From Pelosinus fermentans JBW45 (lineage in GTDB: Bacteria > Bacillota > Negativicutes > DSM-13327), in NCBI RefSeq assembly GCF_000271665.2, contig NZ_CP010978.1:4060501-4124500 (forward strand): 64,000 nucleotides of DNA. The letters run 5' to 3'. A model generated the notes under the pieces. The model was given only the letters and a program-made list of their open reading frames with translations. It made no database searches and was not told the origin of the DNA. Shown here in pieces: positions 7,518 through 60,496 of this stretch. Both the position numbers and the translations under genes were made by a program. The stretch's first letter is position 1, and every line of letters begins with the position of its first letter.

Positions 7518-7756
7518 ATTTAAAACACTCCTATGTAATCTTGTGTTTTCTTCAAACACTCTTGATAAATCCAAATCTCTATATTTGAAATTTTTCGTAA
7601 AGTAGACCGCTGTTTTTTCAGGATTACATTTTTATTTCGAAGTTCACGAATCTCATTTTTTATATGGGCTTAGCATTCTTATTTTTTGATTTTACTATAT
7701 ATTGTGAATATTATTAAAATAACATTTTGTCGTGACTTCCGCCAATACTCTCTAGA

Positions 7757-10654: not shown

Positions 10655-10693
10655 AATAACCTCCATTTAGTCGCTATCGTATTGTTAAGTTAA

Positions 10694-42195: not shown

Positions 42196-42196
42196 C

Positions 42197-42958: not shown

Positions 42959-45900
42959 TTATCCAAGGATAGAAACCGTCGGACTGGGATTACTTGCCTT
43001 GCCAAACCAATTTTGGGTGGTCGTATCAGTTGGCGGGCAATTAAGCAGGCTTATCTTTGCTTCACTGCCGGTAAAGCTTGTCGTTAATCCGGTATTTTCT
43101 TCAAAAACTGCCGCCCACACAATATCCACATTCGTAGTGATTTGCTGAAAGCTGGCTAATTTGAACATATGCAGCTCTTCATGATAAGCTCCCTCGAAAT
43201 GCATATAATAGAGTGCTCTTCCTCCAATTATTTTAGCTGTGATATTACGGAATCGTAGTTCTGGGAGCTTAAAATCAAAGACTTTTGGCGGAACAGGATT
43301 TTGATGAAATAAACCATATACCAGGGAAAAGGCATGAACCGACTGATGTGAGACAATATGAATATTCTCTGCTATAATCGTTCCGGTAAATGGTCTTCCA
43401 AAAGTGTTGTTTAACTCGATCATATTATTTCCATGTGTCATGCTGGATACGTTCTGATAATGGAAGGTGCAGTTAGTAATTGTCACCAATCCATTACCCG
43501 AACCAATCTGAACCCCAATATTATGGAAGATTACCCGGTCGATAAACAAATTGCTGAAATAATGGTGAACGTCAATTCTGTTGATCTCACAAGCCGTAAA
43601 ATGAATATCTTTTACACACTCCATAGCCGTTGCTCCCCAGTATCCATTGATCCTGCAGCCATGAACCCGTACACCCATGCAGTTTCTCATGCGCAAAAAG
43701 TAACCGGACGTTCCTTTTGTCTGCCAGTTGGTATCACGTCCAGCAGTGTTGAAACCATTAACATTTTGAATATCAACATTGTAAGAGTCCCAAATATAGA
43801 ATATAGCATTTTTAAACACGCTGTTTCGTAAAGAATTCCTATGGGGACGAATTGTAAAATCCTTAATTAACGTATTGTGCCGATTTACGTTTAATAGATT
43901 TAAATAGACGTCATTGGAAGTTTCAATGCTTACATCACACCCTATGAAGGTAAGCCTCTTTTCCGGTATAAAAGTGTAGGTAAAGACGAAGGTGGAAGTT
44001 ACGGTTTCACCGTTGACAACAACAGGATTTCCTCCCGCGTTGCTCCATTCGGCTGTCAGCGGTCCTGTACAAATACCGTGCATATCGTGTACTAATAATT
44101 CTTCTCTGGGTACACTGTATAATTCACCGTAGTTGTCTCGTACACAATAAGGGTCTTCGGTCAGTTTTATTACCGTATTGGCCGGCAGACTGTTATCGAT
44201 CATTTCAAAATACGATGAACCTTCCAAAAGCTGCGCCTTCTGCTCGGCACTCACGGGATATGCATAATAAACATCACGGCTGTCTCCCACCACATACCAT
44301 CGGGAATTATTTGCATCTGTCATCTTGATTGTGCTTCCGGACAAATCAACGTCCGTCATCACAGAAATGGCATTTTGGGAACCTTTATAGATAATTCCCC
44401 CGTGCTGTTCCACCCGGACATGATTGGCATTCGCATAGGTATGAGCCTGACTGATTGCTATTTCATCATCGGTAGTGCCATCAAGGGCGGCCCCGAACAT
44501 TTTGTAAGAGACAAAATCTCTATTGTCAATAAGAGCAAACAGACTATTGTCAAGCCGGATTGCCCAAGCTTTTCCTTCGTCAGTGCCTGCTATTCGGTAT
44601 AAAGCGCCCCCTCCGTCATGAACGGTTTCTCTGCCTAACGTCTTGACCCGTAAGCCGGCCTTCAATGTAATATCGGCTTTCATATATCCAATATTTTCAT
44701 AGTATGCAAGTGTTGCAGGCAAAAGAGAGTATGAGAGTTTCCCTTGGGAATTCAGGGCAGCAATTTTTCCTTCATCAACCGCTCCCTGTGACTCTTGAAT
44801 AATATCAGGCAGTTTTCCTCTGCCGCCGTCTCCGCCCTTCTTTAAAGCCAAATCAGCCAGGCTGAAGAAGCAGGCAGCATCTGAGACCGTCATAACCGGT
44901 GAAGCATAGAACAGATGATGTTCTTCCACGCGTTTGAGTATGTCAAGCAGCACAGATACGCTGTTGACGTAATAGGCATAACCCAGATGCGCTCCCAGAG
45001 ATGGAGCATTCGCAATATCATTTCTGGACCACCACTCCGGAAACTGCTCGTTGGCCCATCGAACGGCTCTGGCATAGTCTTTTGCATCCAAAGGTACAGA
45101 CCACAAGGCCGGCCATAACTGCGTCATGATCCACGGATGAAACGGTGCCGGTTTCAGATTTTCATCCATTTCTGCATTTACTTCATATTTATAGCAGCCT
45201 TCATATTCATCATATATTGTGCCTAAGACGGCAAGCAGCTCATCCTTTATTGGAAGTAAGGTATCCGCATAAGCTTTGTCCTTCAGATAGTTAGAAAATA
45301 TATTGATAGCGCTTACCAGTCCGGCATAACTTTCACAGTTATTCATCAAATACCTTGCTGCATATTCCTCGCCGCTTGGATGCTGATCATTCTGGAAAGC
45401 TTTTGTTAATCCCCGATCCAGCTGCGATGTTAAATTTTGCTGAATGATCTCTTTAATGACCTGTCCATACGTATACTCTTCATGAGGAGATGGAAATCCC
45501 AGCCATTTGCTATCATTCGTGGCTGACAAATATTGATCAATGGCCCACACCAAGCGTGCCGCATAAGAATCATGAGCACTCTCGTCGCGCGTTGTACGAA
45601 AATCAGGGCTGCTGTCTTTCCAAAACCACTGCGCTGTTCCATGATACTCACCCACGCATTTCCATAGGATGTCATGATCCTGGCATGTGTCTCCTAATAC
45701 GGCATTCTCTGAAAATACAGCGGTATCTCCGGCAATACCGGCATGCCGGCACTCCCACACCCGTCCTTTCGTATTCGGTCCGGCTACTTTCATTCCAACC
45801 TGATAGGCTTTTCCTGCTACCCACAAGCGGATGCAATGCTTTATAGCAGTCCGTATATACTGCCCGGCTTCTATCGGAAATTTAGCTGCCATTAAACCAC

Positions 45901-47086
45901 ACGCCATACTACCTGAACGCCATTCTATACCAGTTGCCGGTGATTGCCGCCATGCCCCTTCATAGCCTTGGCATCCGGCATAGCGCAATACTGCCGTCCC
46001 TGACTTTACTTCTGCATCAACTTGCACTTCCGGTTCTTTATTGTCCAGCATGCCTGAAGTAACAACTCTCCATAAATCCCCTGTGGAAGTCAAAACGACG
46101 TCGCCTCTCTTCTGATCGGCAGCTGACCAGGTATGACTGGCTTCCGGTATGATATACCGGTCTTTAAACAAATCTATTGTAAAGGGTACTTTCGTTTCTT
46201 GGGCTTTAACTGCATACCGTGTGCCCCTGGCATAAATCTCCGTTACTTTTTCTGCTCCGGCTGCAATCCGGCACAAATGCAGCTTATCGCTATAACGGGG
46301 CAAAGAATCCTCCTGACCGGCTGCACGCTTTTCATAAAAGAGATTTCCTGAACGCTCCAGCCAGACATCCGTAATGTTTGAAGCTTCAAAAGTTTTCGAC
46401 CAGGGCTGGATTTCCACCCGTAAGGGAATGGCTGTCAGTGTGGGAAACATGGCAACCAGAAAAGGAAAGTTCACGGCTAAGTTTTCCGGATCTGGAATGG
46501 CATCCCAGGCAACGATGTAAGGATGAAACTCTCCTTCACTGAACAGTTGATCGATCGTTGCGATTTCCTCACCCCTCTTGCCCCCGACGGTTTCAGCATT
46601 GCCGCCATTAGCAGGAAGCGCTGCCGGCGTATTTTTCAGATCATGATAATCACCGGTTAATGCAACGTCCGAGAACGCAGGAAGGTCCTCTTTGGTGTGC
46701 GTATGCCTGGCAGGCGCGGCTCCCGCTTCCTGTGGAGTATGGGTATGGGCAAAATCAATAATGTGCGTTTTAGTATGGGTGTGTTCAGCAGTGGCAAAGT
46801 CAGTGTCATGTTTGCCGTTCAGCATATCGGCATTACCGCCATTGGCCGGCAGCGAAGAAGGTTTGTTGCGCAAATCATTATAGTCGCCTGACACTGCGAT
46901 GTCAGCAAGCACAGGAAAATCAGTAATCTCTGCTTTCTTATGGCTATGGGCGACCGGGGCAAAATCACTGGCGTGTTTACCTTCCAGCGTCTCTGCGTCA
47001 CCTACACCCTTGGGTATATTCTTAAGATCCAGGTAATCGCCGCTTGTAGCAACTTTTGCTAACTCGGGTAATATTCTACATTTCAT
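42959..47086 (-). CDS. giant tail fibre/receptor-binding protein with beta-helix
   Basis: A 1375-aa putative host-recognition fibre. Residues 1-165 hold repeats of the type GDYxDLKNxPxxLPANGGNAxxxxGK and HTHTKxxxIxDF, a known phage fibre pattern that also ends the smaller fibre at 53995. The middle (~480-780) is helical and Trp-rich (SAHDSYAARLVWAIDQYL, PAPFHPWIMTQLWPAL), like an alpha/alpha-barrel glycan-binding or hydrolase domain. From ~850 to the end it reads as a right-handed beta-helix (VFKNAIFYIWDSYNVDIQNV, ITNCTFHYQN). It could bind or cut a surface polysaccharide. It lies downstream of the radical SAM cassette, 108 bp after it. Confidence 0.8.
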   Translation of the reverse strand: MKCRILPELAKVATSGDYLDLKNIPKGVGDAETLEGKHASDFAPVAHSHKKAEITDFPVLADIAVSGDYNDLRNKPSSLPANGGNADMLNGKHDTDFATAEHTHTKTHIIDFAHTHTPQEAGAAPARHTHTKEDLPAFSDVALTGDYHDLKNTPAALPANGGNAETVGGKRGEEIATIDQLFSEGEFHPYIVAWDAIPDPENLAVNFPFLVAMFPTLTAIPLRVEIQPWSKTFEASNITDVWLERSGNLFYEKRAAGQEDSLPRYSDKLHLCRIAAGAEKVTEIYARGTRYAVKAQETKVPFTIDLFKDRYIIPEASHTWSAADQKRGDVVLTSTGDLWRVVTSGMLDNKEPEVQVDAEVKSGTAVLRYAGCQGYEGAWRQSPATGIEWRSGSMACGLMAAKFPIEAGQYIRTAIKHCIRLWVAGKAYQVGMKVAGPNTKGRVWECRHAGIAGDTAVFSENAVLGDTCQDHDILWKCVGEYHGTAQWFWKDSSPDFRTTRDESAHDSYAARLVWAIDQYLSATNDSKWLGFPSPHEEYTYGQVIKEIIQQNLTSQLDRGLTKAFQNDQHPSGEEYAARYLMNNCESYAGLVSAINIFSNYLKDKAYADTLLPIKDELLAVLGTIYDEYEGCYKYEVNAEMDENLKPAPFHPWIMTQLWPALWSVPLDAKDYARAVRWANEQFPEWWSRNDIANAPSLGAHLGYAYYVNSVSVLLDILKRVEEHHLFYASPVMTVSDAACFFSLADLALKKGGDGGRGKLPDIIQESQGAVDEGKIAALNSQGKLSYSLLPATLAYYENIGYMKADITLKAGLRVKTLGRETVHDGGGALYRIAGTDEGKAWAIRLDNSLFALIDNRDFVSYKMFGAALDGTTDDEIAISQAHTYANANHVRVEQHGGIIYKGSQNAISVMTDVDLSGSTIKMTDANNSRWYVVGDSRDVYYAYPVSAEQKAQLLEGSSYFEMIDNSLPANTVIKLTEDPYCVRDNYGELYSVPREELLVHDMHGICTGPLTAEWSNAGGNPVVVNGETVTSTFVFTYTFIPEKRLTFIGCDVSIETSNDVYLNLLNVNRHNTLIKDFTIRPHRNSLRNSVFKNAIFYIWDSYNVDIQNVNGFNTAGRDTNWQTKGTSGYFLRMRNCMGVRVHGCRINGYWGATAMECVKDIHFTACEINRIDVHHYFSNLFIDRVIFHNIGVQIGSGNGLVTITNCTFHYQNVSSMTHGNNMIELNNTFGRPFTGTIIAENIHIVSHQSVHAFSLVYGLFHQNPVPPKVFDFKLPELRFRNITAKIIGGRALYYMHFEGAYHEELHMFKLASFQQITTNVDIVWAAVFEENTGLTTSFTGSEAKISLLNCPPTDTTTQNWFGKASNPSPTVSILG

Positions 47087-47172: not shown

Positions 47173-47209
47173 ATGGAACGAATGCTGTGTTAAATCACAT
47201 TCGTTCCAT
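47173..47209 (-). repeat. 12-bp hairpin at the end of the radical SAM cassette
   Basis: ATGGAACGAATG and its complement flank a 13-nt loop. One arm is the last four codons (MERM) of the gene at 47195-48406. It may mark the 3' end or a processing site before the fibre gene; no T-run follows. Confidence 0.5.
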
Positions 47210-48406
47210 TAGAAGGTATTTTAGACTGGCCATATGGCGAAAACTTTCGAAGTGCGGTGCATTAAAATCAATGTATTCTTTGATTTGCTGCATTTCAATA
47301 GAACAGTGTGCACCGATTCCTGCCGCAGTGGTATGCATCGCAGCACAATACTGGGATTGTAATACTGCTGGAGAACTATTGAAATCGGCAGTTATTGCTT
47401 TCTCACCTGCACTCATATGCTCAAGCGCGATCTTTTGCGGAAACTCGGGAATTTTACACTCTACAATGTGCCGGTATTTTGTCACCATTTGCAGGTAATA
47501 CATTGTCCAGCGATCATTTAGATAATTAAGTGCTTTAACGCTTTGTTCACGGTTATCTGGGGTAAACGACCGGTTGATCATTTCTACAATCATTCCCAGG
47601 GTCTCAAAATATTTCTCACTTCGTAAATCAAAGAAACATTTAGCAATTGCATCCAGCAATTGCAGCTTGTAGTAATTGAACTTAGAATATTTAAATGTAT
47701 TGGCCGTAAAAATTGGCACAACCTCTTCTTCAACTACTGTAACCAGTTCTTGACAAGGTCCGAAATAATCTAGCATAGTAGCAAAAAAATCAAACATTTG
47801 AAATACTTTGCAGTGCCGCATCAAATTCACAATATAATCCGTATGGCCAAACAGCGTGCAAATCCCTTCAATCATGACATCCATTTGCTTACAATAGTCC
47901 TGGAACATACCTATTGTAAGACGCCTATCCGGATGATTAAACTCTTCATGCTTGATTAAGAAGCATTTGTATGTGAAATATTCTTCATGAAGTTTCTCGG
48001 AAAAAACTTGTTTACTTTCTTCTATCAGCCTGATAAATTCCTCGATGTATTGCAACACTGCCGGCTCAGTTGATAGATAATGAACAATACCGATCAAATT
48101 CTGATAAATGAATAGTTTATTCTCTAAATCTGTTTCGGTCTTCAGCATTTCCATCAGAACCGTTTCATCATTGGTTTCCATTATTTGGGCATTGCGCAAT
48201 AATACCGGCGACAGTACCCGGGTAAATATCACCTCTCTCTTCGCTAACAACTCTATACCGCCATTATCGTTAATTTCCTCTTCTTTAACGATGCGTTCTA
48301 CGAAGTCGTCTGCTTGCAAGGCATTATTGAGAGCAGACTCCCACTCTTGATACTCCGAATCCTCTTTAAGGATTCGGTATACGCGCTCAGGAAGAAAACC
48401 GATCAC
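47195..48406 (-). CDS. unrecognised helical protein of the radical SAM cassette
   Basis: A 403-aa protein, mostly helical, with no signal peptide and no motif that I recognise. It starts four bases before the stop of the radical SAM gene upstream (ATGA overlap), so translation is coupled. The C-terminus (AGEKAITADFNSSPAVLQSQYCAAMH and AGIGAHCSIEMQQIKEYIDF, by key residues) is less acidic and could be a separate small domain. Possible roles are a leader-recognition partner, a scaffold that holds the fibre for modification, or a tail protein. None is supported by a motif. Confidence 0.6.
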   Translation of the reverse strand: MIGFLPERVYRILKEDSEYQEWESALNNALQADDFVERIVKEEEINDNGGIELLAKREVIFTRVLSPVLLRNAQIMETNDETVLMEMLKTETDLENKLFIYQNLIGIVHYLSTEPAVLQYIEEFIRLIEESKQVFSEKLHEEYFTYKCFLIKHEEFNHPDRRLTIGMFQDYCKQMDVMIEGICTLFGHTDYIVNLMRHCKVFQMFDFFATMLDYFGPCQELVTVVEEEVVPIFTANTFKYSKFNYYKLQLLDAIAKCFFDLRSEKYFETLGMIVEMINRSFTPDNREQSVKALNYLNDRWTMYYLQMVTKYRHIVECKIPEFPQKIALEHMSAGEKAITADFNSSPAVLQSQYCAAMHTTAAGIGAHCSIEMQQIKEYIDFNAPHFESFRHMASLKYLLMERM

Positions 48407-49554
48407 TTTCCATCACTCCTTGGTAAGCTATAGTTTAACGCCCATCGTTGATACTTCTGAAGGTATCCCGCCAGCATTGTCTTTTCTTCTAGAGTCAAAT
48501 GATTTATCCATGCAGAGATCTCATGGTAAAAAACTTGGATGGTTTCGCATTGATGCGGACAATAATAATCATCAAAATGTTCCCCCTGCTGGATATAGCG
48601 CTCATAACGGCAGCCCCCGTCACAAAGGCAATCTACAGGGCATCTTTGACAATCATCATGACTGCACTTTCTTTTAATGACATCAAAAACCTCATTGTTT
48701 ATCCCGTTTTCGCAAATATTGCCGACTTTATAGCGGCCATAATCCAACTGACTGAAAATGGTGCATGGATACAAATCTCCATTGGGACGCATGACAACAT
48801 AATTGCCGGCATCACAAGAGGAGATATTATTATCCTTCACCATGACAGCAATGATCTTGTTCATCCAGTCCCTTGGTATATACGGTGTGGTTTTGCGAGC
48901 TAGATCCTCACCTATGGTGTATAGCGCACTGCGTAAGCCCAATCCCAGCTTACTTGAAAAGCCTGAACGGAATTCTTTCTGGTGCGCTACGACAAAATCG
49001 CCATGCACCAATCCGGGATACTCGCCCTGCAATGCCTTAAAGCCGAGATAGGTGTTTAACAGATTGGCCACATTATCATCATTGATCACGCATTTAACAT
49101 CAATAGCTACCTTGTGATCCAACGTCCAGATAATCTTCTTAAAAACCTCATCTTGTATATCTTCTCCATTCAAACGGGGACGGTTGGTATTGCCTGTACC
49201 GTCCCAGGAAAGTTGTATTTCGGGGATAGGATATGCCGGATATATCTCTTCAATAAAACGTTCATAGTTTACAGTGGCGCTTGTAACCATTTGAAAGCGG
49301 CATGTATTCCAGTACTTTGCCAATACCTTTTCCATAAGCTCCAGCTCTACCAGAGGCTCACCGCCAAAAAAGATTATACGCGGCTGTTCAAAGGCAAAGG
49401 AAGCAATCAGTTTATCAATATATTCCATGGGCATAGTCTCCCGCCGCTCCCGGTTCCTGATATAGCAATATACGCATCGGTTAGGGCAGAACTCGGTTAA
49501 AATCAGGAATATATCACGGAAGCGCCTATTGAACATTGGTTTCACCGGACACAT
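48403..49554 (-). CDS. radical SAM/SPASM-type protein (fourth of the cassette)
   Basis: A 383-aa radical SAM protein. The 4Fe-4S motif is CPNRCVYC (Cys 23, 27, 30), followed by FFGGEPLVE. The C-terminal SPASM-like set has CDAGNYVVMRPNGDLYPC, CSHDDCQRC, CLCDGGC and YCPHQC. This is a typical peptide- or protein-maturase architecture with two auxiliary clusters. It is not a close copy of its two neighbours: the GGE motif is GGEP rather than GGEL/GGEV. It overlaps the previous gene by 13 bp and the next by four. Confidence 0.82.
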   Translation of the reverse strand: MCPVKPMFNRRFRDIFLILTEFCPNRCVYCYIRNRERRETMPMEYIDKLIASFAFEQPRIIFFGGEPLVELELMEKVLAKYWNTCRFQMVTSATVNYERFIEEIYPAYPIPEIQLSWDGTGNTNRPRLNGEDIQDEVFKKIIWTLDHKVAIDVKCVINDDNVANLLNTYLGFKALQGEYPGLVHGDFVVAHQKEFRSGFSSKLGLGLRSALYTIGEDLARKTTPYIPRDWMNKIIAVMVKDNNISSCDAGNYVVMRPNGDLYPCTIFSQLDYGRYKVGNICENGINNEVFDVIKRKCSHDDCQRCPVDCLCDGGCRYERYIQQGEHFDDYYCPHQCETIQVFYHEISAWINHLTLEEKTMLAGYLQKYQRWALNYSLPRSDGK

Positions 49555-50729
49555 CCCCCCTCTCTGCCAAAAGGTAGATTTTCAAGATCATAAATGGATA
49601 CAACCCTGTTGTTTGCTGGTGTTGTCGGGCAGAGTTCGTTATATACCTGCCACTCACAATGGCGCATGGCGCAGGTCACACAATCAGCAGGATCGGCATT
49701 AATTATTTTTTTTATATTATCACCTTGGCAATCAAAGCAATGCAGCAGCGGATTTTGACATTGCATTGGCTTGTTGAAAATCGTAAAGTCACAATGTCTC
49801 CGGAGCTTAGCAACTGATTCAGCATTAAGACCCGTTTTGATATATCCGATACGAAACTCTTTTTTAATGAACTCGTCGTCGAGGTACTTGCTGCAGGGGT
49901 ATATATGACCATCAAAGTCAATATAAAGCACTTTGCCCATACTGCTGCAGCCAAGCTTACGTACTAGATTCGAAGCCGAACTAAGCACCTCTTTGGCAAA
50001 ATTCATTGGCTCCCAGTTGAGATATGTCCAGCGCTGCCCAGGATACGCATATCGTTTAAGATACTCTTTGCCGACATATCTTAATTGATCTTTGAATGTT
50101 TCAATGAAAACAGCATTTTGATACTTTTCATTGCATTCCTGATAGTCAAAAATAAAATAATACTCAAACTTCAAGCAATTGCTGTCCAGCAAAAACAACA
50201 GACTATTGTAGAGATTATCCATGGTATCAGGTGTAATGGCATATCGTACAATGACCTGCCTGTTCCAGCGGCTTTTGCCAAGCAGCTTAATTTTCTCGTT
50301 AAAAAAACTGTCGTCAAATTGCGGATTGTCGGAACGCCTTGTTGCTGTCACCGAATGGGTGCCATCCCAAGACAGCTTTGTTCCATTGGCATTTAAAAGT
50401 CCCAGGTCAATCCAGTCCATAATTTTTTCAAGATAGGTTCCATTCGTTGTCAGCCGGATCGTCAATTTCATATCGCGCTTCTTTTCAATTTTTCTGATTT
50501 GTTTAAGCCCGTGCATTACTTCATCACTATGGAGAGAGAGTTCTCCTCCGCACAGATTGATCCAAAGTTCATCTCCTAGCGGAAGCATGTAAAGTAAACG
50601 TGACAAATCATCGAAACTATGTTCCGTTCGTTCTTTGCATTTGCCGTAAAGAGGGAAAAAACAATAGCTGCAGTTCAGATTGCATAAGGATGATACCGCA
50701 TATTCGATTCCTGTCACCTGCTCATACAT
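49542..50729 (-). CDS. radical SAM protein (third of the cassette)
   Basis: A 395-aa radical SAM protein with CNLNCSYC (Cys 16, 20, 23), NLCGGELSLH, and TKLSWDG. The C-terminal Cys set differs from SPASM: CSSMG...YPCSKY, then CDFTIF, CQNPLLHCFDC, CVTCAMRHCEW and CPTT. Its closest relative is the neighbour at 50730: both share the LGKS(K/R)-x-x-x-VxVRxAxTPDT-x-(D/N)-NLY stretch. The two genes are adjacent (stop and start touch), so they are a tandem duplication that has diverged, perhaps to act on different residues. Confidence 0.85.
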   Translation of the reverse strand: MYEQVTGIEYAVSSLCNLNCSYCFFPLYGKCKERTEHSFDDLSRLLYMLPLGDELWINLCGGELSLHSDEVMHGLKQIRKIEKKRDMKLTIRLTTNGTYLEKIMDWIDLGLLNANGTKLSWDGTHSVTATRRSDNPQFDDSFFNEKIKLLGKSRWNRQVIVRYAITPDTMDNLYNSLLFLLDSNCLKFEYYFIFDYQECNEKYQNAVFIETFKDQLRYVGKEYLKRYAYPGQRWTYLNWEPMNFAKEVLSSASNLVRKLGCSSMGKVLYIDFDGHIYPCSKYLDDEFIKKEFRIGYIKTGLNAESVAKLRRHCDFTIFNKPMQCQNPLLHCFDCQGDNIKKIINADPADCVTCAMRHCEWQVYNELCPTTPANNRVVSIYDLENLPFGREGGCVR

Positions 50730-51968
50730 TTATTCACCGCCTTTCCGAAGGGGAAGCTGATGATAATTGCCAGTGCTTAACCGTTCAAAATTCCAGTCTT
50801 GTACAAAATCATAGCGATCCGCAAACATTTTCTGTTCCTCTTCTGATAATCGGATATCCCCTTTGCGAAGCTCAAAGGCGCAGCGCTCCATGCCCCTCAT
50901 TACACAGGTCTGACAATTCCTCGCATTCAGTTGCCCTGATCTGGCCTTATTTAGCGCAGGGCATTCAAAGCAATGCAAATTATTGCATGACAGATAATCA
51001 CAACTGGGAGCGTGCATATAATCATCAATGAATTGGCAGACAGTTTTTTCATCAAATCCGGTATGGATATCCCCTAGCACATAGGGAGCAGCCGCACTGT
51101 TTTTCATTGTATAATCGCAGTTCGAATAGGGATCAAAATATCCGCAGGGGAAAATACGGCCATCATAAGCAATGTAGAGAGACCGGCCAAGATGGCGGCA
51201 GCTTACCGAACGTTGTTTATTATCAGTGGTCTTCCTTACATGATCGACAAAGTAAAGGCTGTCCCAATTAGAAAACGTCCAGCGATTCTGCCGATTATGA
51301 TAACGCCTGCAATATTCACCGATAATCATTTGCAGCTGTGCATGAAACTGTTCCGCAAATTTCTGGCTTTTATATGCTTCACACTCAGTGAGAAAGTAAT
51401 ATTCCCATTTCGTACAGCCGGTATCAAGCAGATATAAAACCGCTTCGTACAAATCATCCACCGTGTCAGGAGTTACCGCTGTGCGTACCAATACCGATTG
51501 ATTGTATTTGCTTTTTCCCAGCAGCCGAATCTTACTGTTAAAAAACTCGTCGGTAAACAGCGGATTCTTGGGCTTCCTCGACCTGGAGGCAGAATAGATT
51601 CCGTCCCATGATAATTTTGTGCCGTCAGGCTCCAGCAATCCCTCGTCCATCATGTCGATAATGCCTTCCATGTTGGTACCATTCGTGATAACGGTAAAAT
51701 TCATTTTTAAATCTTGTTTTCGCTCCAGCTTTTTCAACTCTCTTATTCCGTAACGCATCTCATCCAAAAATAAAGAAACTTCTCCGCCGGTAAGCTTTAT
51801 TTCCAGCGAATCCCGGAAAGGCAGCTGACTCAGAAAGCATGCCAGTGCATCAAAGTCTGTAAAGATGTCGTTGCGTTCTTTAATTTCTTTGGTTTGAAAA
51901 CAATAGACACAGTCCAGGTTGCAGTAGGACGACACTTTATAAGTAATTTCTTTGATTAGTGAAAACAT
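50730..51968 (-). CDS. radical SAM protein (second of the cassette)
   Basis: A 412-aa radical SAM protein with CNLDCVYC (Cys 16, 20, 23), KLTGGEVSLF and TKLSWDG. Additional Cys are in CRHLGRSLYIAYDGRIFPCGYF, CDYLSCNNLHCFECPAL and CQTCVMRGMERCAFE, enough for two auxiliary clusters. It starts 21 bp after the Cys-rich protein gene. It is paralogous to the protein at 49542-50729, with the same spacing of the first motif and much of the middle. The likely role is thioether or C-C bond formation in a ribosomal peptide; the substrate is inferred from position. Confidence 0.85.
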   Translation of the reverse strand: MFSLIKEITYKVSSYCNLDCVYCFQTKEIKERNDIFTDFDALACFLSQLPFRDSLEIKLTGGEVSLFLDEMRYGIRELKKLERKQDLKMNFTVITNGTNMEGIIDMMDEGLLEPDGTKLSWDGIYSASRSRKPKNPLFTDEFFNSKIRLLGKSKYNQSVLVRTAVTPDTVDDLYEAVLYLLDTGCTKWEYYFLTECEAYKSQKFAEQFHAQLQMIIGEYCRRYHNRQNRWTFSNWDSLYFVDHVRKTTDNKQRSVSCRHLGRSLYIAYDGRIFPCGYFDPYSNCDYTMKNSAAAPYVLGDIHTGFDEKTVCQFIDDYMHAPSCDYLSCNNLHCFECPALNKARSGQLNARNCQTCVMRGMERCAFELRKGDIRLSEEEQKMFADRYDFVQDWNFERLSTGNYHQLPLRKGGE

Positions 51969-51989: not shown

Positions 51990-52640
51990 TTAGCTCCATC
52001 CTCCACAGTTTTGATTATGGCAGGTATTATTATTACAACCCTGACAAGCCAGCTGGCAGGAAGTCTGACAGCTCACCTGGCAGGTACGAGCGCATAAGTC
52101 ACCATTCCACCAGATGTTTTTGCCATCAAGATAAGCATTAAACCTCACCAGATTATCACGAACTGTGTTAATCGTATTTGCTGCAGCTTTGCTCCCTGCC
52201 GCCTGATTGGCAACCGCTGCCAGACCCAATGAGGCGGTATCTCCGGGGATCATGCTCTGACTGGCTGCCTGCAGGTTCTTATACGAATTAATAAAATTGT
52301 TAATATTATTAATACTTAAACGCTGCTGTCCACCAGTAAAAAAGGTTTTGGTAGAATTATATAAACTTTGACTGCCGCTGTCATAGCCGGGCAGGCGGGG
52401 AGCTTTTAAGTTGTCAGGTACAGGCTGCCTCAGGCTGCCGCTGTTGTTCACACGGCCCCCACCCTGAGGAACAGCAGGATTATAATAGATCGAGGTCACA
52501 CCGCATAGTTCATTATGAACCACCAGAATGACATCGATAATTTGTTTGATTTCAAAGGGTGTAACTTTAGTCGTATTAGGAACGGCAGCGTCAGGAATCG
52601 TATATTGCGCACTGCCTCGCCTAGCATAAATCGGCATCAT
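51990..52640 (-). CDS. Cys-rich-tailed protein, candidate radical SAM substrate
   Basis: A 216-aa protein. Residues 1-175 are Gly/Asn/Ser/Gln-rich with little helix-breaking hydrophobic core (NNINNFINSYKNLQAASQS) and one isolated Cys at 46. The last 34 residues carry eight Cys at 183, 187, 191, 195, 199, 202, 207 and 212: C-X3-C-X3-C-X3-C-X3-C-X2-C-X4-C-X4-C, ending GGWS. This regular spacing is like thioether-crosslinked RiPP cores, while the long N-terminus is unlike a normal leader. It starts in an ATGA overlap with radical SAM gene one, and AGGGG stands upstream. A structural tail component with a modified tip is an equally fair reading. Confidence 0.75.
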   Translation of the reverse strand: MMPIYARRGSAQYTIPDAAVPNTTKVTPFEIKQIIDVILVVHNELCGVTSIYYNPAVPQGGGRVNNSGSLRQPVPDNLKAPRLPGYDSGSQSLYNSTKTFFTGGQQRLSINNINNFINSYKNLQAASQSMIPGDTASLGLAAVANQAAGSKAAANTINTVRDNLVRFNAYLDGKNIWWNGDLCARTCQVSCQTSCQLACQGCNNNTCHNQNCGGWS

Positions 52641-53977
52641 GATTCCCCTTTCGTATTTTGTATAATGTCCAACCACGTATAAAGCGGATATAACTTTTTC
52701 AGGAAATATTGCCGGAAGCTTGGCAGCAATATCTCTTCATACTCATCCATATATCCATAAAATTTAGTCAGACTAACCCCAAACTCCGGAGTTTCAATAT
52801 CCATATCGCACAGCTTGTCAAAATACTCTTTGATGGTCAGATTTGTCCTGAGGATATTTAACCGTTTACTGCGTAAATTAGCAGTATTCATCAACCGCTG
52901 CTGAAATGCTTTGGTCACTTGGAAACTGACAAGCAGCGTATCGCACCATGCTGAAGTCGGTGTATGCCAGTCGCCGCTTTGGGTCAGGTTTTCTGACGGA
53001 CAGCCGCCGCGACATACCGGTTTTGCTTCACAGTCCTTGCACCGCTGATTCTCTCTATGAATTTTGTACTCAGGATTGACAATTTTGGAGGGGTCAATCT
53101 TACCGCTTAAAATATTGCCAATCTTCAAGTGTTCATACTGGTCATCGATGGTATGACGCTGATGGCAAGGTAAAATATCCCCGTCGATGCCAATGGAACA
53201 CCATCGGCTTGTACCTGCCGTACAAGGTTCAATCTCTTCTTTTACAGGCTCCAGAACATGTTCGATGTAGTCGTCAATAACTTTGAAAGCAATATTCTTA
53301 CGGTTATTCACATCATTTGCAATCACCAGGAAATACTCGTATAGCTCTTGAAGAGAATTCCTGAATGCAAGCAGCTGTTCTTCGGGCCAGGCAACATCCG
53401 TTACCGGTACGGGAGCAATATTGTAAATTCCCATACCAACAATATGCTCTACTCCCTTGGCCATATCGGCAGCATCTTCCGGCAGCACCGTCATGCGGGC
53501 CTCCAGTAAGTAGCCCAAATCCCGCTCAATCAGCCTTTTGATATTACCGGCAACGATATCGTAAGAATGGCTGCGATTCCGGTCATGAACTGCCTTAAGA
53601 CCATCAATTGATATTAGCACAAATATCTCATGTTCTTCGATATATTCCAGCATTTCCTCGGTCAACATGGTTAGATTCGTGGTAATACCCAGCCGGGCAC
53701 TGTATTTTTTTTCTTTGACGTGATCGGCGAGAGCTTTGATGACCGGCCAATTGAGCAGCGGTTCCCCGCCAAAAAGGTTAATCATAAAATATTTCATATC
53801 CGGATAATGCTGTTTAAAACCTTCATAGGCAATATCTACTATGCTGACAGCAGTTTCCGGCGTCATGAAGGCACTTTCCTTGCCTGTTTCAAAACAATAG
53901 GTGCAACTCAGATTACATGAGTTAGTAATGTTTAATGTAATGGCATTTAACTGAAAATGTTCTTGAAAAGTAGACAT
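52637..53977 (-). CDS. radical SAM/SPASM maturase (first of the cassette)
   Basis: A 446-aa radical SAM enzyme. The core motif is CNLSCTYC (Cys 21, 25, 28), followed by NLFGGEPLL and ISIDG. The SPASM region CTAGTSRWCSIGIDGDILPCHQRH, CKDCEAKPVCRGGC and WCDT gives the seven-Cys pattern of anSME/sactipeptide maturases (two auxiliary 4Fe-4S clusters). A C-terminal ~100-residue extension follows. It begins 17 bp after the fibre gene at 53995 with a GAGAGGAG RBS, and overlaps the Cys-rich gene by four bases. That close coupling makes the Cys-rich protein its best candidate substrate. Confidence 0.88.
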   Translation of the reverse strand: MSTFQEHFQLNAITLNITNSCNLSCTYCFETGKESAFMTPETAVSIVDIAYEGFKQHYPDMKYFMINLFGGEPLLNWPVIKALADHVKEKKYSARLGITTNLTMLTEEMLEYIEEHEIFVLISIDGLKAVHDRNRSHSYDIVAGNIKRLIERDLGYLLEARMTVLPEDAADMAKGVEHIVGMGIYNIAPVPVTDVAWPEEQLLAFRNSLQELYEYFLVIANDVNNRKNIAFKVIDDYIEHVLEPVKEEIEPCTAGTSRWCSIGIDGDILPCHQRHTIDDQYEHLKIGNILSGKIDPSKIVNPEYKIHRENQRCKDCEAKPVCRGGCPSENLTQSGDWHTPTSAWCDTLLVSFQVTKAFQQRLMNTANLRSKRLNILRTNLTIKEYFDKLCDMDIETPEFGVSLTKFYGYMDEYEEILLPSFRQYFLKKLYPLYTWLDIIQNTKGES

Positions 53978-53994: not shown

Positions 53995-54753
53995 TTATAG
54001 ATAAATGGCTCCCAAAGCCTGCCAGCCGCTTATTTTATAAATTTTTGCAAGATTGTTTGCCGTATCAATCCAAATTTCTTTATCCACTGCAGGATTTGCT
54101 GGTGCAGCAAGACCAATCGTAATGCGCACCCCTCCAACGGTTGCTGCATTGCCGCCGTTAGCAGGCATCGTGGCTGGGAAATCTGTGATTTGGCTTATCG
54201 TATGCAGATGTATCGTCGGAGCTGCGCCTGCCTGCACTGCCGTCACATGATGAGGATTATTTTTGTCATTGATATGTTCCTTTAAATCCTGCCGCGTTGC
54301 AAACAGCAGCGTATCGTTAATGATAGCTGTCACATTAGAGGCCGTACCTACGACTGTAATCAGGTCCAAAATCAACTCGACAACCCGTGAACTTCCTTTT
54401 GGCGGCAGCCACTCACTTTGGCCTCCCGAATTGGTTATGCTGTATAATATTTCTCCTTCCTGAGGATCTTTGGCATAAACGCCGACTTCACGAATAAATA
54501 ACCCTGTATCGATGTCCTTATTATGCAGTACTACCCGGATACGGCTTGTTCCATCACCAATGACCGCCATATCCTGTATTATTAACGTCATTTTAGGCGC
54601 GATCAGCTGCGTTAAGGTATCAATACTTACCCCGTCTGCCAGTAATCCGTCGCCAACCATCACCTTAGTAAATTCAAGTTTAACCCCTGTTTGCGCTTTT
54701 GCTTGCAAAGCCCGGCCTTTTTTGGTTAGGGTCATCCCCGTATATTCTGCCAT
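53995..54753 (-). CDS. phage tail fibre/collar protein (P2 gpH-like N-terminus)
   Basis: A 252-aa protein with the N-terminal DUF3751-type tail-collar fold (MTLTKKGRALQAKAQTGVKLEFTKVMVGDG) found in P2 gpH and related fibres. The C-terminal part has TIHLHTISQITDFPATMPANGG and the ending WIDTANNLAKIYKISGWQALG. The same LPANGGNA repeat occurs in the 1375-aa fibre, so the two may share assembly or recombine. GGGAGG precedes the ATG at 54753. It is the last standard tail gene before the radical SAM cassette. Confidence 0.85.
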   Translation of the reverse strand: MAEYTGMTLTKKGRALQAKAQTGVKLEFTKVMVGDGLLADGVSIDTLTQLIAPKMTLIIQDMAVIGDGTSRIRVVLHNKDIDTGLFIREVGVYAKDPQEGEILYSITNSGGQSEWLPPKGSSRVVELILDLITVVGTASNVTAIINDTLLFATRQDLKEHINDKNNPHHVTAVQAGAAPTIHLHTISQITDFPATMPANGGNAATVGGVRITIGLAAPANPAVDKEIWIDTANNLAKIYKISGWQALGAIYL

Positions 54754-54820
54754 TGTATCGCCTCCCAAGGCTATATTATAATATTGCGAACTTGACCTTA
54801 AGTAAGCTTCTGCTGTGTCT

Positions 54821-55393
54821 TTACAGCACCGTCCCTTCCGGGTAAATCGTCATTGTCTTAGCAATTCGTTGTGCACCGCCAAAGTATAAATACATTTTCC
54901 TTTCCCGATACACAAAGATATCTTCCAGCCACGAGCGGACATTCTTTACTGCCGAAACCAATTCCGTCACCCGATCGAAAGTCGCTGTATCCTGAATAAG
55001 ATCCGTACATTCGATTCGAAAAAAATACGGCTTTCCGCCGTATTCAAACCACTCTGCTATTTTGGCAGAACCCAAAATAAGGCGGGCCATTTCTTCCACT
55101 ACCGCCGGCGTGCCTTTACGGCGATGCCAGGGAATGGAATTCTTCACAAGAGTGCGCTTGGCCGCAAGTGACAGACTGTCGTCCCAGAAATCAACATGCC
55201 ATTGCCAGGCCAACAATTCAACAATATCTTCGTCAGACCAGTCCATATTGGCAAGAATGTGCAGCAACTCTCGTTGTACATCAATACACTGTATCTGCTC
55301 ATTGGCAGCCTCAGCTACTGCGACCGTGCGTTCATCATTTTTTAAGCTGGAAGGCAGGAGATCAGCCATCGACACATCTTTAAAATCAGGCAT
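54821..55393 (-). CDS. phage tail protein I (P2 gpI-like)
   Basis: A 190-aa baseplate protein of the P2 gpI family, which helps to attach fibres to the baseplate. Family stretches are LLHILANMDWSDEDIVELLAWQWHVDFWDD and IPWHRRKGTPAVVEEM. The ATG at 55393 has GGAGGAGAGG upstream and overlaps the end of gene J by 8 bp. Confidence 0.9.
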   Translation of the reverse strand: MPDFKDVSMADLLPSSLKNDERTVAVAEAANEQIQCIDVQRELLHILANMDWSDEDIVELLAWQWHVDFWDDSLSLAAKRTLVKNSIPWHRRKGTPAVVEEMARLILGSAKIAEWFEYGGKPYFFRIECTDLIQDTATFDRVTELVSAVKNVRSWLEDIFVYRERKMYLYFGGAQRIAKTMTIYPEGTVL

Positions 55394-56501
55394 TTTCCTC
55401 TCCTCCATACAAGATGCTGCTCTCTTTTACGACAGCAATCTGAGGAATCAGCAGCTCTTTAAATGCCGGCTGTCTGACTTCCACCCGTTTTGCTCCTGCA
55501 TTTTCGATGCGCTTAACGAGTTCGCTGGGATTAATATCCCGGCCGATTCTGGAGCGCTGCCAAAGTACATACTCCTCAATTGCGGCATCGACCTGCTTTT
55601 TGATATGCCCTTTGAGGGGTATGTCTTCTTTGTATAAAAAATAGGTCAGATCAATGTTATACGCAATCACTTCAGGCGGCTCAACCTGAACCTTGTCGGT
55701 CAGCGGCCGCCTCTTTTTGTCATCGCATACAGACAGCACTTCATCCAGCAGCGCTTGGCCGGGAATTTCGCCTCCTGTCAGCAGCGGGCAAATTTTCACA
55801 ACACCAGGCTGAGGTGAATATACAGCCACATCCATAATTTCCTGAGAGGCTGTTTTACTCCAATATTCATATGCGCCCTCCGGCCCGGTCGTGGAAAATC
55901 GTTCAGGAGCCTGCCTGATACGTTGGCGGAAAGGCTCATCGGTTTCCCTGTCGGCTCCGCCTTCACTGACCGTTAGATTCGTCACCGACTGAAACCAGGG
56001 AAACGGGTCAACAATTTGACTGATCGTTCCTGGCAGGAAATCATTGCCGCCGCTGCCTTCTGTCAGGCTTTCGGCGGCGACTTCCATACTGGTCTGCCCG
56101 ATCGCCACAAGGGCATCTTCCAGCGTACTGAAAAACACATCGCCTCCGGGCGTAGCCCTTGTACCGGCCGGAATAGTCACAACCTTGTCGCGAGGTGCCG
56201 ACAGCATAAAGCGCATTGTCGTCTTAGCTCTGGATGCAGGCAGGCGGGTAGTATCGACTAAATAGCCGATATGGTCAAGAAAATCTCCGGTGGCATAAGC
56301 CAGCAAATTTTGTTTGGCGCTTTGATCCATCAATACCCGCTCCTGAGCCAGCATGGAAGCAATAGACAAAAGCAGCAATCTTACCGGATCGCCTTTCGCC
56401 AGTACCCTGCCGGTCTGTTCCTGATAAGCGGTGATGACATAGTTTTCCACATCGGAAGTAGCTGTATTGACAAACTGGATTTCAGGTATATTATTAGCCA
56501 T
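55386..56501 (-). CDS. baseplate assembly protein J
   Basis: A 371-aa baseplate J protein (P2 gpJ/T4 gp6 family), which forms the wedge that triggers sheath contraction. Family features are ETDEPFRQRIRQAPERFSTTGPEGAYEYW near residue 190 and the C-terminal VKRIENAGAKRVEV. It overlaps W by eight bases and I by eight, as usual in a P2-type operon. Confidence 0.92.
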   Translation of the reverse strand: MANNIPEIQFVNTATSDVENYVITAYQEQTGRVLAKGDPVRLLLLSIASMLAQERVLMDQSAKQNLLAYATGDFLDHIGYLVDTTRLPASRAKTTMRFMLSAPRDKVVTIPAGTRATPGGDVFFSTLEDALVAIGQTSMEVAAESLTEGSGGNDFLPGTISQIVDPFPWFQSVTNLTVSEGGADRETDEPFRQRIRQAPERFSTTGPEGAYEYWSKTASQEIMDVAVYSPQPGVVKICPLLTGGEIPGQALLDEVLSVCDDKKRRPLTDKVQVEPPEVIAYNIDLTYFLYKEDIPLKGHIKKQVDAAIEEYVLWQRSRIGRDINPSELVKRIENAGAKRVEVRQPAFKELLIPQIAVVKESSILYGGEENA

Positions 56502-57314: not shown

Positions 57315-57797
57315 TCAATGAGAATGGTGATTGGTATTGCCCCCTGAATCAATAATGCTGCCGCCGGCGTGAATATTGCCGCTCACGCTGACGTTGCCGG
57401 CAATGCTGATTCCCTGCGCTGCCGTAATATTGATCTTACCTGACGTATTGACAGTCATCGTCCTGGTTTGCCGGTCATATTCGACAACAGCCCCGTCGGC
57501 AAAACGGATCTGCCGCTTCTCGGGCGAACTGACAGCAGGACGGTCAACCTCAGAATAAACTGCTCCCAGCACAAATCCCCGGGAAATGCCATTCGGCAAA
57601 AAAATACAGATAACGCTTTCCCCGATATCCGGCATACAGTAATCCTTATTTTTAAGCGTATTGGCTACAATAACCGGCAAATCATGGGATACCATGTTGT
57701 CCCTGTCTTCAAATACTACCCTGACGGTTGCTTCTGCGGCATTAACCGAAGATACCCTGCCCAGGCGGATAAGATTTTGCAACGTATTGTCCATCAA
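57315..57797 (-). CDS. baseplate spike protein V
   Basis: A 160-aa baseplate assembly protein V: an OB-fold (LIRLGRVSSVNAAEATVRVVFED) and a C-terminal triple-stranded beta-helix spike of short repeats (KINITAAQGISIAGNVSVSG), ending in NTNHHSH. The final His residues can bind iron at the spike tip, as in P2 gpV. It pierces the outer membrane. It overlaps D by four bases. Confidence 0.9.
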   Translation of the reverse strand: MMDNTLQNLIRLGRVSSVNAAEATVRVVFEDRDNMVSHDLPVIVANTLKNKDYCMPDIGESVICIFLPNGISRGFVLGAVYSEVDRPAVSSPEKRQIRFADGAVVEYDRQTRTMTVNTSGKINITAAQGISIAGNVSVSGNIHAGGSIIDSGGNTNHHSH

Positions 57798-58846
57798 TAC
57801 CCCTCCAGAATTTTACGCAATTCCACACTGACCTGATAACCGGAAGAACCGTAATCATGTTTGGCTTGTTCAATAATGTACTTGCCGTCATACCGCCCCC
57901 AGCCCTCCAGCATCACCGTCTTGCCTGAAACCAGGCGGACATCGCCTGCAAGCGTCAAGCTGGCCTTGTTTTCTTCTTTGTTCTTCTGCCGCAATAATTT
58001 TTTTGCCAGCTTTTCCGCTTCCGCAGCACTGTCCACCTTTTCATTGATCACCAGAACCTGGCCCGTATCCGGGGAGTCGGGCGGTTTAAATTCATATGCC
58101 AGCGTGGCTTTCGTCTTTGCGTCGTAATAGGATACTTTGCAGGCTGAATAACAGTCCCTGGAATTAGAAGAAAAACTGTAATTGAGTATAGTGGAGCCGC
58201 GCTTTTTGATGGTCAGTAAGACCGGCTTCCCCTCATACATCTGCTCATCGAAGATAACGATTTTGGAATAAGTAATCTTAAGGGCCAGTCCGGCTTTTTC
58301 GCATAGCATTTGCAGGAATTCCAAATCCGACTGCTGATTTTGCTCCACTCGCGAATAAAAGGGATCCTCGGCACAGGCAAAGTACTTTTCCAGTCCTCCC
58401 TTGGCGGCAATTTCTCCAAGAATAACCGACAGCCTGACCGCCTCCCAGGCTTTGTCCTTTTTCTGACCGCGCAGCGAAGAGACCACCGGCACTGCTATGG
58501 CTTTGAGATTCAATACGTCAGGCGGACCGCTCAAACTTATCTCATCCACTTGAAAGGCCCCGCATTCCAGTCTTTGTTCTTTACCGGTTTCCTCCCCATT
58601 CTTGATAAGAAGTGCCACTTTTAGCGTATCGCCCTTTTTCGGCTTCCTGCTGGCCTGCCACTGTCCACGGCTGTCTTCCAGGGTGAGCTGCAAATCGTCA
58701 GCCTGACCGCTGGCGCTATCAGTATAAGAAAAACTTAAAATAAACAGTCCAATCCCTTTAGAAATGTCTTCTTCCTGCCCTACAGAGTCTTTAGCAAGAT
58801 ACTTGATTTCCAAAGCGGTACGGCGGGCATTCATAACACTGGTCAT
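57794..58846 (-). CDS. phage late control/tail hub protein D
   Basis: A 350-aa protein of the phage late-control D family, structurally the gp27-like hub of the baseplate. The core YSRVEQNQQSDLEFLQMLCEKAGLALKIT is the conserved region. The name reflects P2 gpD. It overlaps X and V by four bases each. Confidence 0.88.
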   Translation of the reverse strand: MTSVMNARRTALEIKYLAKDSVGQEEDISKGIGLFILSFSYTDSASGQADDLQLTLEDSRGQWQASRKPKKGDTLKVALLIKNGEETGKEQRLECGAFQVDEISLSGPPDVLNLKAIAVPVVSSLRGQKKDKAWEAVRLSVILGEIAAKGGLEKYFACAEDPFYSRVEQNQQSDLEFLQMLCEKAGLALKITYSKIVIFDEQMYEGKPVLLTIKKRGSTILNYSFSSNSRDCYSACKVSYYDAKTKATLAYEFKPPDSPDTGQVLVINEKVDSAAEAEKLAKKLLRQKNKEENKASLTLAGDVRLVSGKTVMLEGWGRYDGKYIIEQAKHDYGSSGYQVSVELRKILEGY

Positions 58847-59058
58847 CCTTCATCACCTGTCCGCCAGGGAGGAAGGTCTGCTGACTTCTCCGTAACCGCA
58901 TCGGGCAGCTCAAGCAAAATCCCGGCAGAAAAAATGACTACTTCCCGAAGAGCCGTATTGGCTTCAATGAGTGTAGTCATGTAACTTTCATCTTTGTAGT
59001 TTTTATAGGCAATCATATCCCAGGTATCACCCTGAACCGTTGTATAAACGTTAGCCAA
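58843..59058 (-). CDS. phage tail protein X (LysM-like)
   Basis: A 71-aa protein of the tail protein X family, a small LysM-like domain (VQGDTWDMIAYKNYKDESYMTTLIEAN) near the hub. It overlaps the tape measure and D genes. Confidence 0.9.
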   Translation of the reverse strand: MANVYTTVQGDTWDMIAYKNYKDESYMTTLIEANTALREVVIFSAGILLELPDAVTEKSADLPPWRTGDEG

Positions 59059-60496
59059 AGGAAACTCTCCTTTCCTGCCACTGCAATTCTTTAAGCTGCC
59101 GCTTTAAGTCCATCAGCGCAGCCTGAGCCGCCTGCTGCACCTGCTGTACGGTATTACTGTCCGCATTACCGTTGATGGTAATATTAATAGGAGCGGAGAC
59201 CACAATCCCCTGTTTGGCGCTATCCCCGCCAAACACCGGCAATGCCGACCCTAAACCCGGCTGCTGCTGCTGCCCTTCAAACATGCCCAGCATACGCCCT
59301 GCAGTATACCACAGCGACACCGCCCGACTGCTGCCATCTAAAGGAATCGCCGCTTCCGGCCCTTCCTCGGCAAAGGTGGTCAGTATCGGGTGCATTATAA
59401 TGCCGCCTCTGGCGTTGCTCTGCACATCGCCAGGTGCCTCACCAGCCATATTCCCTCCGCCGAATAAACCATTCCACGCTCCTTGTATCCAGCTGAATTT
59501 TTGGCTTAGCCAGTCAAAAGCGCTGCTGAACGCTCCGGTAATGATTTCGTAGACACTGCCCAAAGCAGCCATAATATTGTCCGGTAGCTGCGTCCAAAAC
59601 TCAATGATAACGCCCACATAAGTCTCGACAATCTTGGCCAGCCCCGGAAAGGTTTCTTGAAACTTAGCCCACACGCTGTCAAGTACAACTTTAATGGTAT
59701 CCCAATTTTCGTACAGCAAAGTGCCCAACTGAATTAATCTGCCGATAGGGTTGGCATTCATCACTGTATTTAGCATTCTTTGTGACCTAGTTAGGCCCTC
59801 TACTGCTTTAGCGGCTTTTGGCATTTGATTGGAATAGGCTATAAGGCTATTTGACGGTAAATTATTGCCAACTCTTTCCTGCTTCTGTGTGACATATCCT
59901 CCTTTTGGCACTAACCTTTCTTTAGCCTCGTTTATATTCTTATTCCTTACTTTATTAACAATAGGTAGTTTGTTCCCTGTCTTGTTATTCTGAACCAATT
60001 TTGCAAGACTTGTTTTATACGCACTTAAAGCGCTTTTTAGATTGTCCCTGAAATCATTCAAAGCCCTGCCAAAACTTTGATTGTACTTTTGAGCAATCGC
60101 TTCTAGATCTGATGATTTGTCGAAGCTATTATTTTTAGATGTAGGTAATCTAACTTGCTCACTTTTTTCTGTCTTCTTATTTAATCTTTCATTAACCCAC
60201 TTATAACTTTTTTTCCCAACATCATATACGTCCTTACTCTTTTTTCCCATTTCAACAAGCTTTACTAATAAAACCCAGCTTCCTGCAAGGGCAAGGAGCG
60301 CCTTACCTGCATCATTTAATAAGTTTCCTACTTCAGGTATCATATCAATACCTGTATATTTAATTAAAGCTGAGCTTTCACCTTTTTTATCATTATTCAA
60401 ATTTATCTTAATATAGCTTGCAATTTCGATTAAAGTATCCATCTTTTTTTCAATTCTGCTTAAGTCAGTTATTTTTTCATTACTTATTTCTGCCAT
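59051..60496 (-). CDS. tail tape measure protein (short, chimeric-looking)
   Basis: A 481-aa tape measure that sets tail length. The C-terminal half has the usual features (MNANPIGRLIQLGTLLYENWDTI, ARGGIIMHPILTTFAEEGPEAAIPLDGS, then Gln-rich coil). The first ~230 residues are Lys/Asn-rich, encoded by AT-rich DNA, and look unlike the rest. At roughly 1.5 angstrom per residue the tail would be only about 70 nm. The AT-rich junction lies beside the AT-rich moron gene, so both may have come in one exchange. Confidence 0.82.
   Translation of the reverse strand: MAEISNEKITDLSRIEKKMDTLIEIASYIKINLNNDKKGESSALIKYTGIDMIPEVGNLLNDAGKALLALAGSWVLLVKLVEMGKKSKDVYDVGKKSYKWVNERLNKKTEKSEQVRLPTSKNNSFDKSSDLEAIAQKYNQSFGRALNDFRDNLKSALSAYKTSLAKLVQNNKTGNKLPIVNKVRNKNINEAKERLVPKGGYVTQKQERVGNNLPSNSLIAYSNQMPKAAKAVEGLTRSQRMLNTVMNANPIGRLIQLGTLLYENWDTIKVVLDSVWAKFQETFPGLAKIVETYVGVIIEFWTQLPDNIMAALGSVYEIITGAFSSAFDWLSQKFSWIQGAWNGLFGGGNMAGEAPGDVQSNARGGIIMHPILTTFAEEGPEAAIPLDGSSRAVSLWYTAGRMLGMFEGQQQQPGLGSALPVFGGDSAKQGIVVSAPINITINGNADSNTVQQVQQAAQAALMDLKRQLKELQWQERRVSFG

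Follow-up and report, generated by a model that had tools for sequence, protein, structure and literature searches.

Bacteria are known to mature cysteine-rich peptides with radical SAM (rSAM) enzymes, in most cases to make a small peptide that is released or a subunit of an enzyme. Among the closest described systems, SCIFF, a short peptide with six cysteines that is widespread in Clostridia, carries a Cys-Thr thioether, freyrasin carries a Cys-Asp one, and QhpD makes its bridges inside a protein subunit (PMC8326336). CXXX-repeat systems (enzyme TIGR04115, substrate TIGR04117) place C-X3 repeats next to an rSAM gene, and none was described in phages in the literature that we searched. Here we analyzed 64,000 nucleotides of Pelosinus fermentans JBW45 (contig NZ_CP010978.1, positions 4,060,501 to 4,124,500; hereafter the window), in which a protein with a cysteine-rich end, CxP, is encoded among rSAM genes inside a cluster of phage tail genes.

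The CxP gene (51990-52640, minus strand) encodes 216 residues that begin with MMPIYARRGS (from ATGATG) and end in CARTCQVSCQTSCQLACQGCNNNTCHNQNCGGWS. A first-pass annotation made from the letters of the window had pointed to eight cysteines in the last 34 residues, arranged as C-X3 four times and then C-X2-C-X4-C-X4-C ahead of a GGWS end, and the ORF translation reproduces this pattern exactly (residues 183, 187, 191, 195, 199, 202, 207 and 212). These last residues, 183 to 216 (51993-52094), are referred to below as the core; the 182 residues outside it contain a single cysteine, at position 47. Such a pattern is not due to chance, because the runner-up among the 93 stop-to-stop ORFs of at least 100 residues in the window has four cysteines in its last 34 residues. 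An upstream GTG would extend the protein to 228 residues, and the ATG that overlaps the rSAM-A stop codon (ATGA) is the likelier start. The N-terminal part, about 180 residues, far exceeds the usual length of a RiPP leader, as had also been remarked. No match to the window CxP was found in Pfam, NCBIfam or PHROG, nor did these collections place it in a metal-binding or disulfide-rich fibre family with no rSAM partner, the case that the annotation had named as speaking against its proposal. The AlphaFold model of the protein is unusable (mean pLDDT 33.6).

CxP belongs to a cassette of six packed genes, all on the minus strand and transcribed in the order rSAM-A, CxP, rSAM-B, rSAM-C, rSAM-D and PER. 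rSAM-A (52637-53977, 446 residues) is a radical SAM protein, probably of the SPASM type, nearest to the PapB, QhpD and ScfB maturases, rSAM-B (50730-51968, 412 residues) is the best-conserved enzyme of the cassette, with 52% and 47% identity to homologues, rSAM-C (49542-50729, 395 residues) is a relative of rSAM-B, and rSAM-D (48403-49554, 383 residues) combines a radical SAM with a SPASM domain. Neighbouring genes overlap by 4 bases (rSAM-A/CxP), 13 bases (rSAM-C/rSAM-D) and 4 bases (rSAM-D/PER), and rSAM-B and rSAM-C abut, an arrangement like that of an operon with translational coupling. Each of the four enzymes exceeds the PF04055 gathering cutoff of 29.5 bits (64.2 with an E-value of 2.2e-17 for rSAM-A, then 34.8, 31.2 and 49.7 for rSAM-B, rSAM-C and rSAM-D) and carries the CX3CX2C motif (CNLSCTYC, CNLDCVYC, CNLNCSYC and CPNRCVYC, in the same order), the cysteines of which are kept in homologues. 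SPASM assignment passes the TIGR04085 cutoff for rSAM-D (47.7 versus 27 bits); against PF13186, rSAM-A, rSAM-B and rSAM-C score 21.0, 17.1 and 19.4 bits, below the cutoff of 21.5, although the rSAM-A series C252-C271-C313-C316-C322-C326-C345 is kept in the homologues of this enzyme. The cassette contains no recognisable gene for a protease or a transporter. Recent transfer of the cassette, as judged by GC content, was considered and rejected, as 42.6% in the cassette and 46.1% in the tail genes do not differ clearly.

In comparison with described maturases, these enzymes fall short of every curated maturase cutoff that we tested. PapB (NF047865), a ranthipeptide maturase, is the top NCBIfam match of all four, with 208.1, 88, 96 and 75 bits for rSAM-A to rSAM-D against a cutoff of 340, and the proposed substrate is unlike PapA. 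rSAM-A has additional sub-cutoff matches to QhpD, SCIFF, Nif11, CXXX-repeat and other maturases. With CXXX-repeat systems our locus shares C-X3 repeats next to an rSAM gene, but rSAM-A obtains 100.4 bits against a TIGR04115 cutoff of 350; the CxP of a prophage in genome G086 matches TIGR04117 weakly (15.2 bits, E 0.017, cutoff 50) and the window CxP does not match it. QhpD (TIGR03906) is comparable in that rSAM thioether bridges are made in a lasting protein subunit rather than in a peptide product (PMC8326336), yet the rSAM-A match (1.1e-48, 166.1 bits) falls under the cutoff of 453, and substrate and setting differ. Like the locus, SCIFF and its enzyme ScfB pair an rSAM/SPASM protein with a cysteine-rich stretch spaced as CQxSCQxxC (TIGR03974 match of rSAM-A: 5.9e-40, 137.5 bits, under the cutoff of 425). 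However, the SCIFF precursor has six cysteines in about 45 residues, whereas the window CxP has eight in 34, and the CxP family consists of proteins of 200 to 520 residues in phage tail loci, accompanied by several rSAM enzymes and PER. The CxP core resembles a SCIFF-like peptide of genome G064 beyond cysteine spacing: the score was reached by 11 of 2000 shuffles in which the cysteines were kept fixed, and the same test with three other cores gave 15, 36 and 39 of 2000.

The last gene of the cassette, PER (47195-48406), encodes an all-helical, TPR-like protein of 403 residues with an N-terminal FLPERxYxxLK motif and no family match. Its structure model, usable in part (mean pLDDT 65.7), is a TPR-like helical repeat; the best VIA-align hit is PlcR (Z 10.3, rmsd 11.2, 230 aligned), a likeness that may be just the common helical-repeat arrangement. 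TPR-like folds commonly serve peptide binding, and our guess from the model is that PER may hold CxP as a substrate-binding partner. A Foldseek search of BFVD at E <0.001 returned two uncharacterised proteins, from Myoviridae sp. ctYA416 (TM 0.69) and ctWb16 (TM 0.56), two phages that may carry the cassette given these proteins with the PER fold.

The cassette is located between two tail-fibre genes, in the same direction as the tail operon. Upstream of it on the minus strand are the contractile sheath (62341-63789) and tail tube (61801-62322; PF04985 2.9e-45 and phrog_23 4e-93 across the two genes), a tape-measure-like protein (59051-60496; phrog_28 2.6e-10), the baseplate hub (57794-58846) and spike (57315-57797; phrog_9992 2.4e-18, YQBQ 5.7e-11 and Phage_GPD 1.5e-6 across the two), baseplate protein J (55386-56501; PF04865 3.4e-59), baseplate/tail protein I (54821-55408; PF09684 9.9e-28) and, in the adhesin position, tail-fibre protein 1, which has a tail-collar fibre N-terminus (53995-54768; PF12571 4.9e-6, phrog_7037 7.6e-50). 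Downstream, also on the minus strand, are the 1375-residue tail-fibre protein 2 (42959-47086; phrog_16586 1.8e-22, tail fiber), two small ORFs and an N-acetylmuramoyl-L-alanine amidase (41668-42288), the lysis end of the cluster. Flanking genes are chromosomal: superoxide dismutase and SelO on the left, and on the right an ORF of 167 residues without known function, followed in our list by RsgA and a sigma-70 region 4 protein. The sigma-70 region 4 protein (L008 1462-1851, to the right of the window) adjoins the tail cluster and is a possible regulator of the tail genes. Because the window-locus proteins tested include no recognisable head, portal or terminase protein, the locus looks tailocin-like rather than like a whole prophage. 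At the gene level it resembles R-type tailocins in its sheath, tube, baseplate, fibres and amidase (lysis gene) and in having no recognised head genes; no tailocin with a component modified by rSAM enzymes turned up in the open-access literature that we searched.

Of ten genomes in the family, three encode protein I, namely our own and those of the congeners G005 and G036, and in these two congeners the tail genes stand in the same order and end in a longer fibre-1 gene. Identity to the window in G005 and G036, respectively, is 56 and 59% for the sheath, 49 and 47% for J, and 42 and 41% for I, and none of the rSAM, CxP or PER proteins has a BLAST match in the tail-cluster stretches of these two genomes. 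Since the congeners carry the tail cluster without the cassette, it is an addition at the fibre position.

Homologous cassettes were found in six other elements, one prophage (in G086) and five kinds of IMG/VR contig: L003 (3300042922_000712), L018 (3300031853_000025, with two CxP and two PER genes), L020 (3300028888_000164), L021 and L016 (3300027816_002956 and 3300008264_000842, one kind) and L032 (3300043077_000173, rSAM-A and CxP only). CxP immediately follows rSAM-A in all seven elements, and three or four rSAM genes surround it in six. The G086 cassette, in the order rSAM-A, CxP, rSAM-B, rSAM-D and PER, lies within a prophage: genes for terminase, portal and major head protein are located upstream of it, and downstream, with one small ORF in between, is a gene for a virion structural protein. 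rSAM-C is present in L003 too. In L032 (110 kb), whose record may be a fragment, the sole match to the rSAM-B profile (E 6.4e-22) falls on the rSAM-A gene. Fibre and tail genes near the IMG/VR cassettes were recognised in part, with PHROG tail matches in L036 (the same contig as L018) and in L032, which has a head-tail adaptor as well. Of the two CxPs in L018, the first (4613-6175, 521 residues) has an insert with a Gly_rich_2 domain, and the second lies elsewhere in the cassette (7378-7986) with all eight cysteines kept. Short proteins beside three cassettes (tail-fibre protein 1, L007 3292-3729 and L018 2594-3208) end alike, in RITIGxxAPxxPxxxKEIWxDT...W...GA, and may be a common partner. 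A small ORF after the L021 cassette (12817-13161), a candidate A-type Fe-S carrier by its CGCG motif, is possibly tied to the Fe-S demand of the rSAM enzymes. In L003, an ORF between CxP and rSAM-D (10385-11257), putatively HNH-endonuclease-like, may mark mobility.

Distribution of the cassette is rare and patchy. CxP occurs in two of 300 genomes of the class (our own and G086) and, in the wider sample, in three of 380, one of which is a SCIFF-like false relative; rSAM-B passes the limit of E 1e-40 in two of these 380, exactly the two with CxP, and in one of the 398 genomes of the phylum sample, our own. Genome-contig searches confirmed none of 187 stretches obtained with full CxP and none of 17 obtained with the core alignment, and a CxP query had no match in the phages collection; we suspect that low-complexity filtering hides cysteine-rich queries in such searches. 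rSAM-B had two weak matches in the phages collection and none in plasmids. For rSAM-A, the phages collection gave 18 records, 17 of them 'Bacteriophage sp.' from human faeces, which were left uncounted; three that were inspected are marked UNVERIFIED and may be bacterial. Two matches of the CxP profile were rejected as relatives, one (L005, G090) being a frame in a GC-rich locus without the cassette and the other (L111, G064) a SCIFF-like peptide next to its own rSAM gene. L017 contains a relative of rSAM-D and, across the 17 kb covered, no CxP.

Alignment of the homologues, which the first-pass annotation had proposed as a check on whether the tail alone is conserved, separates the two parts of CxP. 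Pairwise comparison of eight CxPs (28 pairs, aligned positions) gives 42-79% identity for the core and 19-36% for the rest, and the length outside the core ranges from 164 to 487 residues. In a seven-row alignment, the first six cysteines are invariant, as are the Gln that follows cysteines 2, 3 and 5 and, close to the end, one each of His, Gln and Gly. Cysteines 7 and 8 are replaced by Ala and Ser in the first CxP of L018; their joint loss hints that they are partners, and indicates that not every copy needs all eight. The pattern is that of a putatively modified core fixed to a changing carrier. As the least variable part, the core probably has one constant job rather than a part in host-specific receptor recognition.

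Similar pairings recur in unrelated phage contigs beyond this family. We examined 79 viral loci with rSAM-A relatives (from the best 80 of 256 confirmed stretches), forming 56 clusters at 70% identity, for ORFs of at least 100 residues with at least seven cysteines in the last 60; an earlier, looser list had used six. Among these clusters from the best 80 of 256, 21 of 267 ORFs on the rSAM strand within 1 kb were Cys-tailed. The controls gave 3 of 190 for the opposite strand over the same 1 kb, and 7 of 627 and 6 of 493 at larger distances. CxP itself, the search family, accounts for five of the 21, and two are doubtful, as L037 7625-8047 and L097 5792-7036 overlap rSAM genes in another frame. 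The other tails differ widely (for example CTCTCT, CNYCTC, CETGCEV, and CQTGCQVACQ at the end of a 1114-residue protein). Unrelated IMG/VR loci with rSAM/SPASM genes near varied Cys-repeat ends include L028, L030, L037, L049, L051, L057, L067, L073, L074, L084, L086, L088, L091, L092, L097, L103, L104, L107 and L108. By eye, the Cys-tailed protein of L030, listed under the looser six-cysteine rule, is tail-fibre-like. A baseplate-J-like gene (8.8e-7; 20.8 bits versus a cutoff of 21.1) lies directly upstream of a Cys-repeat-ending protein in L057, 2.4 kb from the rSAM gene; this protein has a sub-cutoff match to Pfam protein I (E 0.0057, 17.0 versus 20.6 bits), and no similarity emerged when it was compared by profile with three protein I sequences. 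In L088, the Cys ORF and the rSAM gene are separated by a tail-collar fibre gene, and L097 has a baseplate J gene. In phage phAss-1 (OQ749652.1), a protein of 174 residues with a cysteine-rich end (L011 13147-13668) directly follows an rSAM gene, both read with code 15 (TAG = Gln); the record annotates the rSAM as hypothetical and omits the Cys protein from its feature list, and the main text of the phAss-1 paper does not mention radical SAM.

Taken together, our results favor, with a probability of roughly 60%, a tail or adhesin protein whose C-terminus is modified by the neighbouring rSAM enzymes and stays attached to a large structural protein. This interpretation agrees with the initial suggestion of a likely maturase substrate and possible tail-tip protein, now supported by genomic evidence: core conservation, rSAM/SPASM genes in all seven elements and a tail-module locus. 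CxP, in adhesin or fibre position, would carry the 34-residue core as modification target, and we strongly infer that it is a substrate of the rSAM/SPASM enzymes of the same packed operon, which would modify this core. PER may hold the variable N-terminal part and so present the core to the enzymes; this part, phage-specific, would link CxP to each phage's own tail. Thioether bridges from cysteine sulphurs to carbons of other residues would be the likeliest product by family resemblance, because the nearest characterised relatives form thioethers and the core resembles the SCIFF-like peptide beyond cysteine spacing. A bridged end would be rigid and resistant to proteases and redox changes, and three or four enzymes for eight cysteines could mean that labour is split by position or bond type. 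We further infer that CxP is present in the particle, with a mechanical or chemical role; its place there is deduced from gene position, since no known family covers the window CxP. A receptor-binding tip would be expected to vary and the core does not, which speaks against a variable receptor-binding role.

An unlikely alternative is that the core is cut from CxP and released, the modified peptide acting against bacteria or as a signal; the tail locus would then be a mere parking site, or the peptide a payload of the particle. An rSAM/SPASM gene with a cysteine-rich core is the usual RiPP layout, the core resembles SCIFF, and tailocins, which the locus resembles, are bactericidal particles. 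However, the lack of a recognised protease or transporter makes a lasting modified end likelier than a released peptide, the remainder of CxP is long, with a glycine-rich domain in one case, the same cassette is found in a head-bearing prophage and in other phage contigs, and elsewhere Cys tails end tail-fibre-like or baseplate-like proteins. It is distinctly improbable that the Cys/His end instead coordinates a metal (Fe, Zn or an Fe-S cluster) or is held by disulfides while the rSAM enzymes target something else. Phage spikes with metal-bound tips are known and the spacing of cysteines and His (TCHxQNC) could hold a metal, but against this reading stand the three or four rSAM genes that surround CxP in six of the seven elements, and the recurrence of such pairs in unrelated phages whose Cys repeats look very different. 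Least probable of all is a lysogeny cargo (moron) that serves the bacterial host and is unrelated to the tail, which would fit the rarity noted above (two of 380 class genomes, our own alone in the phylum sample) but hardly a cassette placed inside the tail operon, in its direction and between two fibre genes, and also carried by viral contigs with other phage genes.

The modification of a tail protein with its C-terminus as target remains our preferred reading of CxP. The enzyme-substrate principle is already known. Its use by a virus or tailocin on a protein of the tail module appears new: the open-access literature searched, including passages of PMC10607447, PMC11118758 and PMC8326336, does not describe phage rSAM enzymes that modify a tail protein, and PMC7824862 gave no match. 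More tentatively, at odds somewhat short of even, tailed phages and tailocins may have repeatedly evolved a distinct class of virion proteins with post-translational modification, long tail or baseplate proteins whose cysteine-rich ends are made rigid by covalent cross-links from virus-encoded rSAM enzymes; the cassette would be one conserved family of this class, common to phages that otherwise differ, and the other phage pairs of Cys repeat and rSAM gene independently built ones. CxPs would be natural long substrates in which modified part and carrier part are separable by conservation. Several rSAM enzymes carried by a virus for a tail protein of its own would account for otherwise puzzling rSAM genes in phage genomes and represent a new use of rSAM chemistry, in which covalent bonds harden or functionalise a device for infection or killing.
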